From Thermoanaerobacter wiegelii Rt8.B1 (GTDB taxonomy: Bacteria; Bacillota; Thermoanaerobacteria; Thermoanaerobacterales; Thermoanaerobacteraceae), in assembly GCF_000147695.2 (NCBI RefSeq), contig NC_015958.1:226501-290500 (forward strand): a stretch of 64,000 nt of DNA, given 5' to 3'. Below are positions 21,543 to 26,731 of the stretch, piece by piece. A model generated the notes under the pieces. It did no database searches, was not told where the DNA came from, and saw only the letters and a program-made list of their open reading frames with translations. A program made the position numbers and the translations under genes. How positions within the stretch are numbered: position 1 is the first letter of the stretch; each line of letters opens with the position of its first letter.

Positions 21543-21995
21543 ATGAAACTTGATGAATTGGACTTTGAAATAATGAGAATTCTGCAAACGGATGGAAGAA
21601 AATCATTTAGAGAAATCGCACATATACTTGGAAAGCCAGAGAGTACTATACGATTAAGGTATAATCAGCTGGTTGCAAATAATATCTTGCGTGTTGTTGC
21701 TATTCCCGACCCCAAACAGGTTGGTTTTGAAGTAATGGCTATTCTTTGTTTAAAGGTGGACGTAGTTTATTTGCAAGAGGTTGCAGAAACACTTGCTAAG
21801 GTAGAAGAAGTAAGGTTTATAGCCTATACATCAGGAAGGTATGACCTTATAGTGGAAATATATATGAAGTCCAATGATGATTTGATAAAATTTATGACAG
21901 GGTTTTTGCCACAGATTAAAGGAATTAAAGAATGTGACCTGTCGATTGAACTTAAACTTTTTAAAGATACGTATAATTGGATGAATAAAGCTTAA
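21543..21995 (+). CDS. Lrp/AsnC-family transcriptional regulator
   Basis: A 150-residue regulator. The N-terminal helix-turn-helix (DELDFEIMRILQTDGRKSFR, then EIAHILGKPESTIRLRYNQL) is followed by the AsnC/RAM ligand domain with its GRYDLIVEI strand. The frame opens upstream at 21507, but GAGAGGAG (21529-21536) points to ATG 21543, which gives the family-typical start. It stands directly upstream of the peptide transporter and may act on the palindromes there. A terminator separates them. Confidence 0.9.
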   Translation: MKLDELDFEIMRILQTDGRKSFREIAHILGKPESTIRLRYNQLVANNILRVVAIPDPKQVGFEVMAILCLKVDVVYLQEVAETLAKVEEVRFIAYTSGRYDLIVEIYMKSNDDLIKFMTGFLPQIKGIKECDLSIELKLFKDTYNWMNKA

Positions 21996-22015
21996 AAGAA
22001 TAATAACATTTTACG

Positions 22016-22050
22016 GGCATGGTTTAAAAATTAACCATGCTTTTATTTTT
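22016..22050 (+). terminator. terminator after the Lrp-type regulator
   Basis: GCATGGTT (22017-22024) and AACCATGC (22033-22040) with loop TAAAAATT, followed by TTTTATTTTT. Confidence 0.85.
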
Positions 22051-22086
22051 AAATATTTTGATAAATAATTGACTTTTAAATATTTA

Positions 22087-22176
22087 TTGACAATTTTAAT
22101 TTAGTATGCTATATTAGCAATAATAAGAAAAAATATTGCTAATATAGCATGATTATAGTATTAGCAATATTTTTTT
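22087..22176 (+). promoter_or_regulatory. OPT gene promoter with three phased palindromes and a leader hairpin
   Basis: TTGACA (22087-22092), 17 bases, TATATT (22110-22115) form a near-consensus promoter. Three copies of the quasi-palindrome TATTnnnAATA lie at 22112-22122, 22134-22144 and 22159-22169, with centres 22 and 25 bases apart. The first overlaps the -10 box; copies 1 and 2 are part of a perfect 17-bp inverted repeat (22106-22122 with 22134-22150). Copies 2 and 3 also pair perfectly over 11 bp and are followed by seven T (22170-22176), giving a possible intrinsic terminator in the leader. The adjacent Lrp-type regulator is the obvious candidate to bind; that is inference. Confidence 0.7.
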
Positions 22177-22221
22177 AGTAAAAAATTTATCAAATTAAAA
22201 TTATAAAGGGGGAAAGTAGGA

Positions 22222-24105
22222 ATGCAAAAAGAAGATTTAAAAAATGAAGGAGGGTTTAAACCATATGTACCTGCTGATGTTTATTTACCAGAAATTACTC
22301 CCACATCAGTAATTTTAGGAGTAATATTAGTTATTATTTTTGGTGCTGCGAATGCTTATCTTGGTCTTAAAGTTGGTATGACAGTAAGTGCTTCAATTCC
22401 GGCAGCTGTTGTATCCATGTCGATATTAAAAGGAGTCTTAAGAAGAGGTACTATCTTAGAAAACAATATAGTTCAGACATTAGCTTCTGCTGGTGAAGCT
22501 GCCGCGGCAGGTGTGGTATTTAGTATACCAGCACTATATTTTCTTGATTATATTCCTTCCATGTTATTAATCTCATTAATAACTTTATTTGGTGGAATTT
22601 TAGGCGTAATTGGAATGGTTATCTACAGAAGATACTTAATTGTAGAGCAGCATGGAATCCTACCTTATCCTGAAGGTACGGCTTGCGCAGAAATTCTTAT
22701 TGCAGGTGACAAGGGTGGAGTATCTGCAAAAATGGTGTTTAAAGGTGGTATAATAGCTGCAATATATAGATTTGTGCAATCTGGTCTTGGCCTTTTCCCT
22801 GATGTTATTGAGACATCGATTCCAAAACTTCCTGGTGGGGTTATAGGGGGAAATGTTCTTCCAGCTTTAGTAGGGGTAGGTTATTTGATTGGTTACAGGG
22901 TATCGGCAATAATTTTGGCAGGTGGTTTATTAGCATGGTTGGTAATTATTCCTCTTTTCAGTTTTATAGGTACTTATGTAAATACACCGATATTTCCTTC
23001 TCAAACTCCTCTTTCTCAATTAGATGCATGGGGAATGTGGGCAGACTATATTCAATATATTGGCGCGGGAGCATTAACAGTAGGTGGGTTATTTGAATTT
23101 TTTAAGGCACTTCCTGTAGTAAAAGACGCCATTTTGAGTTCTTTTTCTAAGATAAAAGCAAATGGCTCACAGAAAATTTTGCGCACAGAAATGGATATTC
23201 CTTTTCCTTATATAGTTATTACTTTTCTGGCAATAGTAGTATTAATTGCATTAATACCTCAAATGGAAATGAATATAATGGGAGCTTTTCTCACAGCATT
23301 ATTTGGGTTTTTGTTTGTTTCTATTTCTTCAAGAATAGTAGGGGTTGTAGGGAGTTCTTCAAATCCAGTATCTGGAATGACGATTGCGACTATATTTATC
23401 AGTGCTATTGTTATGAAATCAATAGGCTATACTGGAATTAAGGGAATGGTTACAACAGTTGTAATAGGTGCTATTGTAACAGTTGCGGCTGCTATTGCAG
23501 GTGATACGTCTCAAGATTTAAAAACAGGATACATTGTAGGTGCAACTCCAAGAGCTCAACAGATTATAATGATTCCTGGAATTCTAATTTTTGCTGGTAT
23601 GTCAGGTTTTGTTTTGACATTACTTAATAATGCATATCATATTGGCAGCAGTGAACTACCATCACCAGCAACGGCGGTAATTGCTGTATTGGTTAAAGGC
23701 GTATTTGCCGGTAATTTACCTTGGGGACTTCTTCTTATTGGTGCAGCAATAGGAATAATTGTAGAACTTATGGGCATTGCGTCTTTGCCATTTGCCATAG
23801 GGCTATATCTACCAGTACATTTATCAGTTCCAATATTTATTGGCGGATTTGTAAGAAACATTGTAGAAAAATATAGAAGTAATGGTGTTGAAAGTGGGAC
23901 TTTATATGCTTCAGGACTTGTTGCGGGAGATGCTTTGGTAGGGATTATCCTTGCATTGTTTACTACAGCGGGAATAGCTGATAAACTTGCAATAGCCAGT
24001 GGACTTTTGAACAATAATTTAGCATCATTATTAGCTTTGGTGCTTATCTTGATAATTGCTTACACGCTTTATACTAACTCAAGAAGTGATGAAGTATCAG
24101 AATAA
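22222..24105 (+). CDS. oligopeptide transporter, OPT family
   Basis: A 627-residue membrane protein with some 15 hydrophobic helices. OPT signatures are seen: GAANAYLGLKVGMTVSASIP near residue 35, the LPYPEGTACAEILIAG motif near residue 150, and a GxTxxQDLKTG-like stretch (GDTSQDLKTGYIVGATPRAQ) in the second half. The family takes up short peptides or metal chelates by proton symport. The DUF1028 gene follows after 24 bases. Neighbouring Lrp regulators and an aminotransferase favour peptides as substrate. Ribosome binding site AAAGGGGGAAAG. Confidence 0.9.
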   Translation: MQKEDLKNEGGFKPYVPADVYLPEITPTSVILGVILVIIFGAANAYLGLKVGMTVSASIPAAVVSMSILKGVLRRGTILENNIVQTLASAGEAAAAGVVFSIPALYFLDYIPSMLLISLITLFGGILGVIGMVIYRRYLIVEQHGILPYPEGTACAEILIAGDKGGVSAKMVFKGGIIAAIYRFVQSGLGLFPDVIETSIPKLPGGVIGGNVLPALVGVGYLIGYRVSAIILAGGLLAWLVIIPLFSFIGTYVNTPIFPSQTPLSQLDAWGMWADYIQYIGAGALTVGGLFEFFKALPVVKDAILSSFSKIKANGSQKILRTEMDIPFPYIVITFLAIVVLIALIPQMEMNIMGAFLTALFGFLFVSISSRIVGVVGSSSNPVSGMTIATIFISAIVMKSIGYTGIKGMVTTVVIGAIVTVAAAIAGDTSQDLKTGYIVGATPRAQQIIMIPGILIFAGMSGFVLTLLNNAYHIGSSELPSPATAVIAVLVKGVFAGNLPWGLLLIGAAIGIIVELMGIASLPFAIGLYLPVHLSVPIFIGGFVRNIVEKYRSNGVESGTLYASGLVAGDALVGIILALFTTAGIADKLAIASGLLNNNLASLLALVLILIIAYTLYTNSRSDEVSE

Positions 24106-24129
24106 TATTAAGAAGGGAGAGATTGATTT

Positions 24130-25002
24130 ATGAAAAGAATTGCGACTTTTTCTATAGTGGCTCGGGACCCTGAAACGGGTGAATTAGGTGTAGCGGTCCA
24201 ATCTAAATTCCTTGCAGTGGGGTCTGCAGTTGGTTGGGCAAAAGCTGGGGTTGGAGCTATAGCGACTCAGGCTTTAGCCAATCTTGATTTTGGAGAATTA
24301 GGAATAAAACTTCTTGAGAAAGGGTATTCTGCACAGCAGGTTCTTGATGCATTACTGGCGCTAGACCCCGATAGGGAAGATAGACAAGTAGGCATAGTTG
24401 ATGCCAAAGGTAATTCTGCCGCTTTTACAGGGAAAAGGTGTTTTGATTGGGCAGGACATATTACAGGAGAGAATTTTTCTTGTCAGGGTAATATTTTAGT
24501 AAGTGAGGATACTGTAAAAGCTCTTGCTGAGACTTTTGTTAATACGAATGGAACTCTTGCGCGAAGATTGGTTGCTGCTTTAGATGCGGCTCAGAAGGCC
24601 GGTGGTGACAGGAGAGGCAGACAATCGGCATCGTTACTTATTGTCAAAGAAAAGGGAAGCTATGGGGGATATAATGACAGGTATATAGACTTAAGAGTTG
24701 ACGATGATCCGGATCCGATTGGCAAGTTATCTCATCTATTAGACTTACATGAATTGTACTTTAATAAAACTAAACCGGAAGAGATGGTAATGGTAGATGA
24801 AAAGTTAGCTACTGAAATCCAACAAGCCCTTAAGAAATTGGGGTATTACAAGGGAGAAATAACAGGAGAATATGATGAAGCTACAAAAATGGCTTATAAA
24901 GATTTTTGCGGTTGGGAAAACTTTGAAGAAAGAATTTGTGAAGGTGATGTTGTAGATATAAATGTCTTAAACTATTTGAGAGAAAAAGTAAAGGATAGCT
25001 AA
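24130..25002 (+). CDS. DUF1028 protein with C-terminal peptidoglycan-binding-like domain
   Basis: A 290-residue protein. Residues 1-210 are DUF1028, with the conserved start TFSIVARDPETGELGVAVQS and the internal GGDRRGRQSASLLIV; the fold is thought to be of the Ntn-hydrolase type, which would fit a hydrolase for peptides or related amides, though the reaction is unproven. Residues 225-290 (EIQQALKKLGYYKGEITGEY) look like a PG_binding_1 module. No signal peptide is visible. It is co-transcribed with the OPT transporter, suggesting it processes imported peptides. A strong bidirectional terminator follows. Confidence 0.85.
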   Translation: MKRIATFSIVARDPETGELGVAVQSKFLAVGSAVGWAKAGVGAIATQALANLDFGELGIKLLEKGYSAQQVLDALLALDPDREDRQVGIVDAKGNSAAFTGKRCFDWAGHITGENFSCQGNILVSEDTVKALAETFVNTNGTLARRLVAALDAAQKAGGDRRGRQSASLLIVKEKGSYGGYNDRYIDLRVDDDPDPIGKLSHLLDLHELYFNKTKPEEMVMVDEKLATEIQQALKKLGYYKGEITGEYDEATKMAYKDFCGWENFEERICEGDVVDINVLNYLREKVKDS

Positions 25003-25079: not shown

Positions 25080-26246
25080 TTACAATATTTTCTTTACAAA
25101 ACTTTCTATTCTTTCAAGAGCTTTTGCTATTTTGTCAATGGAATAAGCGTATGAGACACGGATAAATCCTTCACCACTTGGGCCAAAAGCATCTCCCGGC
25201 ACAACAGCAACCTTTTCTTCTTTTAAAAGTTTTTCACAAAATTCCTGTGAAGTCATACCTGTCTTTTTTATCGATGGGAAAATATAAAAAGCTCCCTTTG
25301 GCTCGAAACAGTCAAGGCCCATCTCGCGAAATCCGTTTACAATAAATTTCCTTCTCTTGTCATATGTTTTTCTCATTTTTACTATATCTTCTTCACATTC
25401 ATATATACCCCTTATTGCAGCGTACTGTGCTGTAATTGGAGCGCATATAGTTGTATACTGATGGATTTTATTCATTGCTTCAATAAATCCGTGTTCTGCT
25501 GCAATGTATCCCAATCTCCAACCTGTCATGGCAAAAGCTTTAGAAAAACCGTTTATAAGTATAGTCCTTTCTTTCATGCCAGGCAAGGAGGCTATGCTTA
25601 CGTGTTTTCCTTCATAAGTTAATTCACTGTATATTTCATCAGAAATGACTAGCAAATCATTTTCAATTATTATGTCTATAATTTCTTCTAATTCTTCTTT
25701 TTTCATGATAGCACCTGTAGGGTTATTGGGGTAAGGAAGAATTAATACCTTTGTTTTTGAAGTTATTTTTGATTTTAGGTCGTCAGGGGTTAGTATGAAA
25801 TTGTTTTTTTCGTCGGTAGGAACAAATACAGGGATACCTCTTGTCAAAGTTACACAAGGGGCATATGATACATAGCTTGGTTCGGGGACTAGGACTTCGT
25901 CACCGTCGTTTAAAAGAGCTCTAAGAGCAAGGTCAATTGCTTCACTAGCACCAATAGTCACCATTATTTCTTTTTCTGGGTCATAGGTTAAATTATAATG
26001 AGTTTTTAAAAAATATGATATAGCAATTCTAAGTTCAAGAAGTCCTAAGTTTGAGGTGTATGTTGTACTACCTCTATCTAAGGCGTCAATGCCTTCTTTT
26101 CTTATTTTCCAAGGAGTTACAAAATCCGGTTCGCCAACTCCTAATGATATTATACCCTTTGAATTAGTCACAAGGTCAAAAAATTTTCTGATTCCGGATG
26201 GTGGAATACTTTTTACTACGTTGGATATGTATTTGTCTGTATTCAT
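25080..26246 (-). CDS. PLP-dependent aminotransferase, class I/II
   Basis: A 388-residue fold-type I aminotransferase. The PLP lysine lies in INGFSKAFAMTGWRLGY, the Asn-Pro-Thr-Gly motif in LPYPNNPTGA, and the start NTDKYISNVVKSIPPSGIRKFFD with GVGEPDF is typical of aspartate/aromatic-type enzymes. Its ATG overlaps the stop of the upstream Lrp-type gene by 4 bases (ATGA), so they are translationally coupled. Probable role in amino acid interconversion or catabolism, under that regulator. Exact substrate unknown. Confidence 0.92.
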   Translation of the reverse strand: MNTDKYISNVVKSIPPSGIRKFFDLVTNSKGIISLGVGEPDFVTPWKIRKEGIDALDRGSTTYTSNLGLLELRIAISYFLKTHYNLTYDPEKEIMVTIGASEAIDLALRALLNDGDEVLVPEPSYVSYAPCVTLTRGIPVFVPTDEKNNFILTPDDLKSKITSKTKVLILPYPNNPTGAIMKKEELEEIIDIIIENDLLVISDEIYSELTYEGKHVSIASLPGMKERTILINGFSKAFAMTGWRLGYIAAEHGFIEAMNKIHQYTTICAPITAQYAAIRGIYECEEDIVKMRKTYDKRRKFIVNGFREMGLDCFEPKGAFYIFPSIKKTGMTSQEFCEKLLKEEKVAVVPGDAFGPSGEGFIRVSYAYSIDKIAKALERIESFVKKIL

Positions 26247-26731
26247 GGTGTTATCACCAATCTTTTGTCGTCTTGTCCTTCTTCATAAAAAACTCCGTCT
26301 TTTTTATATCTTTTTAAAATAAAATGTGTGGTAGTGCTTAATACGCCATCAATAGGGGCAAGTCTTTCAGCGACAAAGAAGGCTATTTCTTTCATTGTTT
26401 TACCTTCTACTTCAACGGAAAGGTCATAAGTTCCCGAAATTAAAGATACAGATTTTACTTCCTCAAACTGACATATTCTTTCAGCTATTGCATTAAATCC
26501 ATGTCCTTGCTGGGGTGCTACTCTCACATCTATGAGGGCAGTTATGACTTCTCGGTCAGTTTTTTCCCAATCCACGAGAGCAGTGTATTTTAACAACACT
26601 TTTTTGTCCTCAAGACTTTTTATTGTGTTTTTGACTTCTTCTTCACTAAGCCCTGTAATTGTTGCAATTTGTTTTTCTGTAAGGCGACTGTTTTCGCACA
26701 AAAGGTCAAGGATTTCTATGGTTTTATCCAT
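26243..26731 (-). CDS. Lrp/AsnC-family transcriptional regulator
   Basis: A 162-residue regulator with a winged helix-turn-helix at the start (LTEKQIATITGLSEEEVKNT) and an AsnC ligand domain (VKSVSLISGTYDLSVEV). A consensus AGGAGGTG ribosome binding site precedes the ATG by 6 bases. It forms a two-gene operon with the aminotransferase. It differs clearly from the other Lrp-type protein at 21543, so they are separate family members rather than a recent duplication. Confidence 0.9.
   Translation of the reverse strand: MDKTIEILDLLCENSRLTEKQIATITGLSEEEVKNTIKSLEDKKVLLKYTALVDWEKTDREVITALIDVRVAPQQGHGFNAIAERICQFEEVKSVSLISGTYDLSVEVEGKTMKEIAFFVAERLAPIDGVLSTTTHFILKRYKKDGVFYEEGQDDKRLVITP

Follow-up and report, generated by a model that had tools for sequence, protein, structure and literature searches.

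Comparison with Described Lrp/AsnC-type Systems

Regulators of the Lrp type bind as dimers to palindromes with an AT-rich center, and neighboring sites are placed two or three helical turns apart, the sites themselves usually being degenerate in sequence (PMC2995911). The dimer of FL11, a global regulator, has been crystallized on a 13-bp palindrome (PMC2995911). In Acidianus/Sulfolobus, BarR acts through regularly spaced 15-bp semipalindromic sites of the TTG...CAA type located by its own gene and controls a neighboring gene (PMC10201364).

The locus described here lies in a 64-kb stretch of DNA, termed the window, from a genome of 2.79 Mb (G000) and was compared with the same locus in two relatives, G002 and G010. 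It carries what is probably a two-site operator (sites O1 and O2), at which the Lrp/AsnC-type regulator of the gene immediately upstream would repress an OPT family transporter gene and the DUF1028 gene following it. A close likeness is to FL11 (PH1519, Pyrococcus), a regulator of the same family by sequence whose site, TGAAAnnnTTTCA, is likewise palindromic over 13 bp and AT-rich in its three-base center. Unlike the global FL11, the sites here have arms reading TGCTA and are found at a single promoter in a bacterial host. One strand of O2 reads TTGCTAATATAGCAT, which recalls the TTG...CAA-type sites of BarR. However, the three BarR sites are degenerate and lie between divergent genes, and BarR is an activator of its target, whereas here there are two near-identical sites, tandem genes, and a predicted repression.

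The arrangement has the format of the Lrp/FFRP family, with 13-bp palindromic sites that have an AT-rich center and arms conserved in three genomes, a spacing of 30 bp (G000) or 31 bp (G002 and G010), and inheritance of the regulator together with the operator, in three genomes only. The proposed operator is of a known Lrp/FFRP kind, a neat but ordinary control region, in which the candidate sites are unusually perfect compared with the usually degenerate sites of Lrp-type regulators (PMC2995911). The locus provides a small regulator-transporter cassette with a concrete and readily testable candidate operator. A near-perfectly symmetric candidate Lrp-type site is useful since such sites are usually too degenerate for prediction from sequence.

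Organization of the Regulator-Transporter Cassette

The Lrp/AsnC-type regulator gene (21543-21995, plus strand), which the initial annotation had rightly placed directly upstream of the promoter, encodes a protein of 150 amino acids with an AsnC-type helix-turn-helix (HTH_AsnC-type, PF13404) and a RAM ligand domain (AsnC_trans_reg, PF01037), both above the Pfam cut-offs. The FL11/PH1519 structures 1ri7 and 2e1c are among its best matches of solved structure (E 4.5e-22). The gene is followed by an intrinsic terminator (22015-22042, plus strand) with four G-C pairs and a T-rich tail, which is called by a standard scan, and in G002 and G010 a hairpin plus T-run is likewise present 3' of the regulator gene. 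A gap of 226 bp separates the regulator gene from the OPT family oligopeptide transporter gene (22222-24105, plus strand; PF03169 with E 6e-94 and TIGR00733 above cut-off), which would be the regulated gene. A further 24 bp downstream lies the gene of a DUF1028 protein with a peptidoglycan-binding domain (24130-25002, plus strand), probably co-transcribed with the OPT gene.

These three genes (21543-25002) form a discrete-looking cassette flanked by nagA and an aminotransferase gene. Among the genomes searched, the same cassette occurs in only two others, G002 and G010, where the regulator is ∼90% and the OPT gene 89% identical to those of G000 and where the DUF1028 gene again adjoins the aminotransferase gene. 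In four members of the genus without the cassette, which have no such regulator or operator, nagA directly adjoins the aminotransferase gene. Because the flanking genes are adjacent in these cassette-free relatives, the regulator, operator, transporter, and DUF1028 gene appear to have been gained or lost as a unit. The cassette is known from three genomes, two of which are very close to each other, and a literature search for it returned nothing.

Several further observations concern the surroundings of the cassette. The downstream region 25080-26731 contains a second Lrp-type gene (26243-26731) that overlaps the start of the aminotransferase gene, and this pair is conserved across the family. 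Another genome, G003, carries an OPT remnant of ∼100 residues (L047, G003:C1:158799-159119), an apparent case of gene decay. No tRNA genes were found in the 64-kb window, and a search for reverse gyrase gave nothing beyond topoisomerase-like matches below the cut-off.

Promoter and Conserved Palindromes

The OPT promoter (22087-22115, plus strand) has the form TTGACA-17-TATATT, with the -35 box at 22087-22092 and the -10 box at 22110-22115, and matches the consensus at 11 of 12 positions with a TG preceding the second hexamer. The -35 box is identical in the three genomes (6/6), and transcription presumably starts near 22122, seven bases past the -10 box. The initial annotation had pointed to three TATTnnnAATA words in this area, and all three are exact, with copy 1 (TATTAGCAATA, 22112-22122) overlapping the -10 box as described, copy 2 (TATTGCTAATA) at 22134-22144, and copy 3 (TATTAGCAATA) at 22159-22169, giving start-to-start spacings of 22 and 25. 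Such a triple within 60 bp is unique in the window and arose in 6 of 20,000 sequences simulated from the 226-bp intergenic gap with a first-order Markov model.

Copies 1 and 2 together with the -10 box are spanned by a perfect 17-bp inverted repeat (arms 22106-22122 and 22134-22150, 11-nt gap), which had also been recognized from the outset and constitutes the whole candidate operator. A repeat of this length arose in 2 of 20,000 of the same simulations. A second perfect 17-bp repeat (22128-22144/22159-22175, 14-nt gap) overlaps the first, holds copies 2 and 3, and reaches a run of seven T residues at 22170-22176. It had been described as an 11-bp hairpin followed by seven U; the U-run is real, but the stem was taken too short. 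These two are the only perfect repeats of at least 17 bp with a gap of up to 30 in the window.

In the alignment of the three intergenic gaps the first repeat is conserved. Its arms are identical at 17/17 and 15/17 positions, compared with 50/91 (∼55%) for the upstream intergenic sequence, 2/8 for the loop of the second repeat, and 6/11 for copy 3. Taken together, 32/34 arm positions are conserved versus 71/134 for the other nearby non-promoter intergenic segments compared (Fisher p 3e-6). G000 has three TATTnnnAATA words, G002 has two, and G010, in which the second site no longer matches, has one. Each promoter, by contrast, holds exactly two copies of TGCTAnnnTAGCA, with center distances of 30, 31, and 31 bp, and the two changes in G010 fall one in the free center of this motif and one outside the 13-mer. 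The first palindrome, O1 (TGCTATATTAGCA, 22107-22119), is placed over the -10 box and is exact and conserved in all three genomes. The second, O2 (TGCTAATATAGCA, 22137-22149), lies at approximately +16 to +28, centered 30 bp from O1 (31 bp in the relatives).

As none of the three genomes has lost either TGCTAnnnTAGCA copy, while a single TATTnnnAATA is left in G010 and copy 3 is absent from both relatives, the conserved unit, as judged from this alignment, is TGCTAnnnTAGCA in two copies and not TATTnnnAATA. Copy 3 amounts to half of a TGCTAnnnTAGCA palindrome and is most plausibly the 3' arm of a leader hairpin. The earlier proposal of phased Lrp-type sites retains its palindromes over the promoter, conserved with the regulator gene in G002 and G010, but their number is two. 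Spacings of 22 and 25 bp are not both helically phased, and of the three-site conservation expected in related genomes, the first repeat is kept and the third site is absent. The mis-phasing of a motif read from a single sequence was corrected by two neighboring genomes.

Leader Hairpin

The second repeat would form a leader hairpin of 17-19 pairs (22128-22175, plus strand) running into the T7 run, with a calculated energy of -18.1 kcal/mol (z -3.7) at 37 °C in G000. At 65 °C, which may not be the temperature of the host, the values are -5.8 kcal/mol for G000 and -1.7 kcal/mol for G002. The stem is composed nearly entirely of A-U pairs. In G002 and G010 a hairpin before a U-run occupies the corresponding position but differs in its letters, and 2 of 5000 simulated sequences of G002 intergenic composition contained a repeat of at least 13 bp together with a T-run. 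That both relatives have a hairpin in this position despite the different sequence suggests that a leader structure is maintained.

The hairpin is regarded as a feature separate from the operator, and a 5'-end structure or a by-product is more likely than a regulated terminator. The chances are roughly even that it protects the 5' end of the mRNA or is the by-product of a mutation at the operator that generates repeats (template switching), either of which is compatible with the operator itself. It begins within ∼5-8 bases of the presumed transcription start, and in G000 its arms repeat the operator arm without a mismatch over 17 bp, an outcome that template switching could give. In the relatives the letters differ. 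The recurrence in both lineages speaks, however, against a pure accident.

Proposed Recognition of the Operator

In the proposed mechanism each 13-bp palindrome TGCTAnnnTAGCA would be bound by one regulator dimer. The palindromes are in inverted order and ∼three helical turns (30-31 bp) apart, a spacing at which two dimers could share one DNA face, and two dimers of one oligomer would bind there together. With O1 on the -10 box and O2 a short way into the transcribed leader, the bound regulator would block RNA polymerase, and repression of the OPT and DUF1028 genes would be relieved by an amino acid or a peptide-derived ligand. The placement of the two sites relative to the promoter is best explained by the adjacent Lrp-type regulator acting as a local repressor.

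Palindromes of perfect symmetry fit many dimeric repressors, and the inverted repeat might alternatively be the operator of a regulator encoded elsewhere, the Lrp-type gene being merely a neighbor. The symmetry here is perfect, as would suit such a repressor, where Lrp-type sites are usually degenerate, and co-inheritance does not in itself establish the adjacent regulator as the binder. A regulator encoded elsewhere is nevertheless unlikely. G000, G002, and G010 are the sole members of the class with this Lrp ortholog, so the operator and the ortholog share the same distribution, albeit over a small number of genomes, and they move as one cassette. The other nearby Lrp gene (26243-26731) is present in many operator-free relatives, and two dimer sites three turns apart are the Lrp format.

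Possible Transcription Termination in the Leader

The leader hairpin might also act as a conditional terminator, yielding a short RNA unless termination is prevented, possibly in a way coupled to the regulator on O2 serving as a roadblock. This reading concerns the hairpin and is compatible with the operator, but it is improbable. As in transcription attenuators, a stable leader hairpin runs into a U-run, a combination that recurs in both relatives and is rare in the simulations of G002 composition. Unlike the G-C-rich stem that precedes the U-run of an attenuator, the stem here is almost without G-C pairs and is strongly weaker at higher temperature, and the hairpin is not called by the standard scan, whereas the terminator at 22015-22042 is. 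An antiterminator partner would also be absent from the promoter's own transcript, judging from the presumed start, since the alternative partner (22106-22122) lies upstream of it. No known riboswitch family matches the leader, and the sole match to a known RNA family is a sub-threshold miRNA (23.1 bits against a gathering score of 139). Because the stem is almost all A-U, early termination is a weak possibility, and its regulation is possible but unlikely. It is very doubtful that O2 does double duty as part of, or enclosed within, a leader terminator hairpin whose sequence shifts while its position is kept, with Lrp-type binding and early termination jointly setting the output of the transporter.

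The switch suggested in the initial annotation, a middle copy able to pair with one neighbor or the other, would find no place in this transcript. Arm 1 ends at about the presumed +1, so the RNA would contain copies 2 and 3 and no copy 1, and a choice of partner would be open only to read-through RNA. Three phased Lrp sites combined with such a switch are highly improbable, for although all three words are exact in G000 and RNA reading through from upstream, with arm 1 included, would form the first repeat in preference to the second, the third site is missing in G002 and G010, the second word is broken in G010 with TGCTAnnnTAGCA kept, RNA started at this promoter would lack arm 1, and a terminator precedes the promoter.

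Distribution of the Motif

The preferred reading, a local operator bound by the adjacent regulator, can be compared with the occurrence of TGCTAnnnTAGCA elsewhere. The paired motif is found in G000 and G010 alone among 398 genomes of the phylum (G002 is outside that sample). Seven exact copies of TGCTAnnnTAGCA occur in the 2.79 Mb of G000, two of them at this promoter and five inside long open reading frames. Such a profile is that of a local operator with one target. Against this reading, the upstream region of the regulator's own gene shows no comparable site. At OPT genes of lower identity (53% and 42%) there is neither a palindrome pair nor an adjacent Lrp gene. Lrp homologues of 34-44% identity do not neighbor OPT genes, and their flanks contain no repeated 13-bp palindromes.

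Eleven palindrome pairs in other genomes were set aside, having no Lrp or OPT relative nearby and possibly reflecting chance in so large a collection. An excess of sites with one or two mismatches to TGCTAnnnTAGCA was discounted because the control motif differs in composition and most of the listed window sites are coding. Among the coding-region copies of TGCTAnnnTAGCA in G000, two lie in near-identical genes ∼8.4 kb apart (L091 and L096, G000:C1:48107 and 56500), each containing one copy, which suggests a recent duplication.
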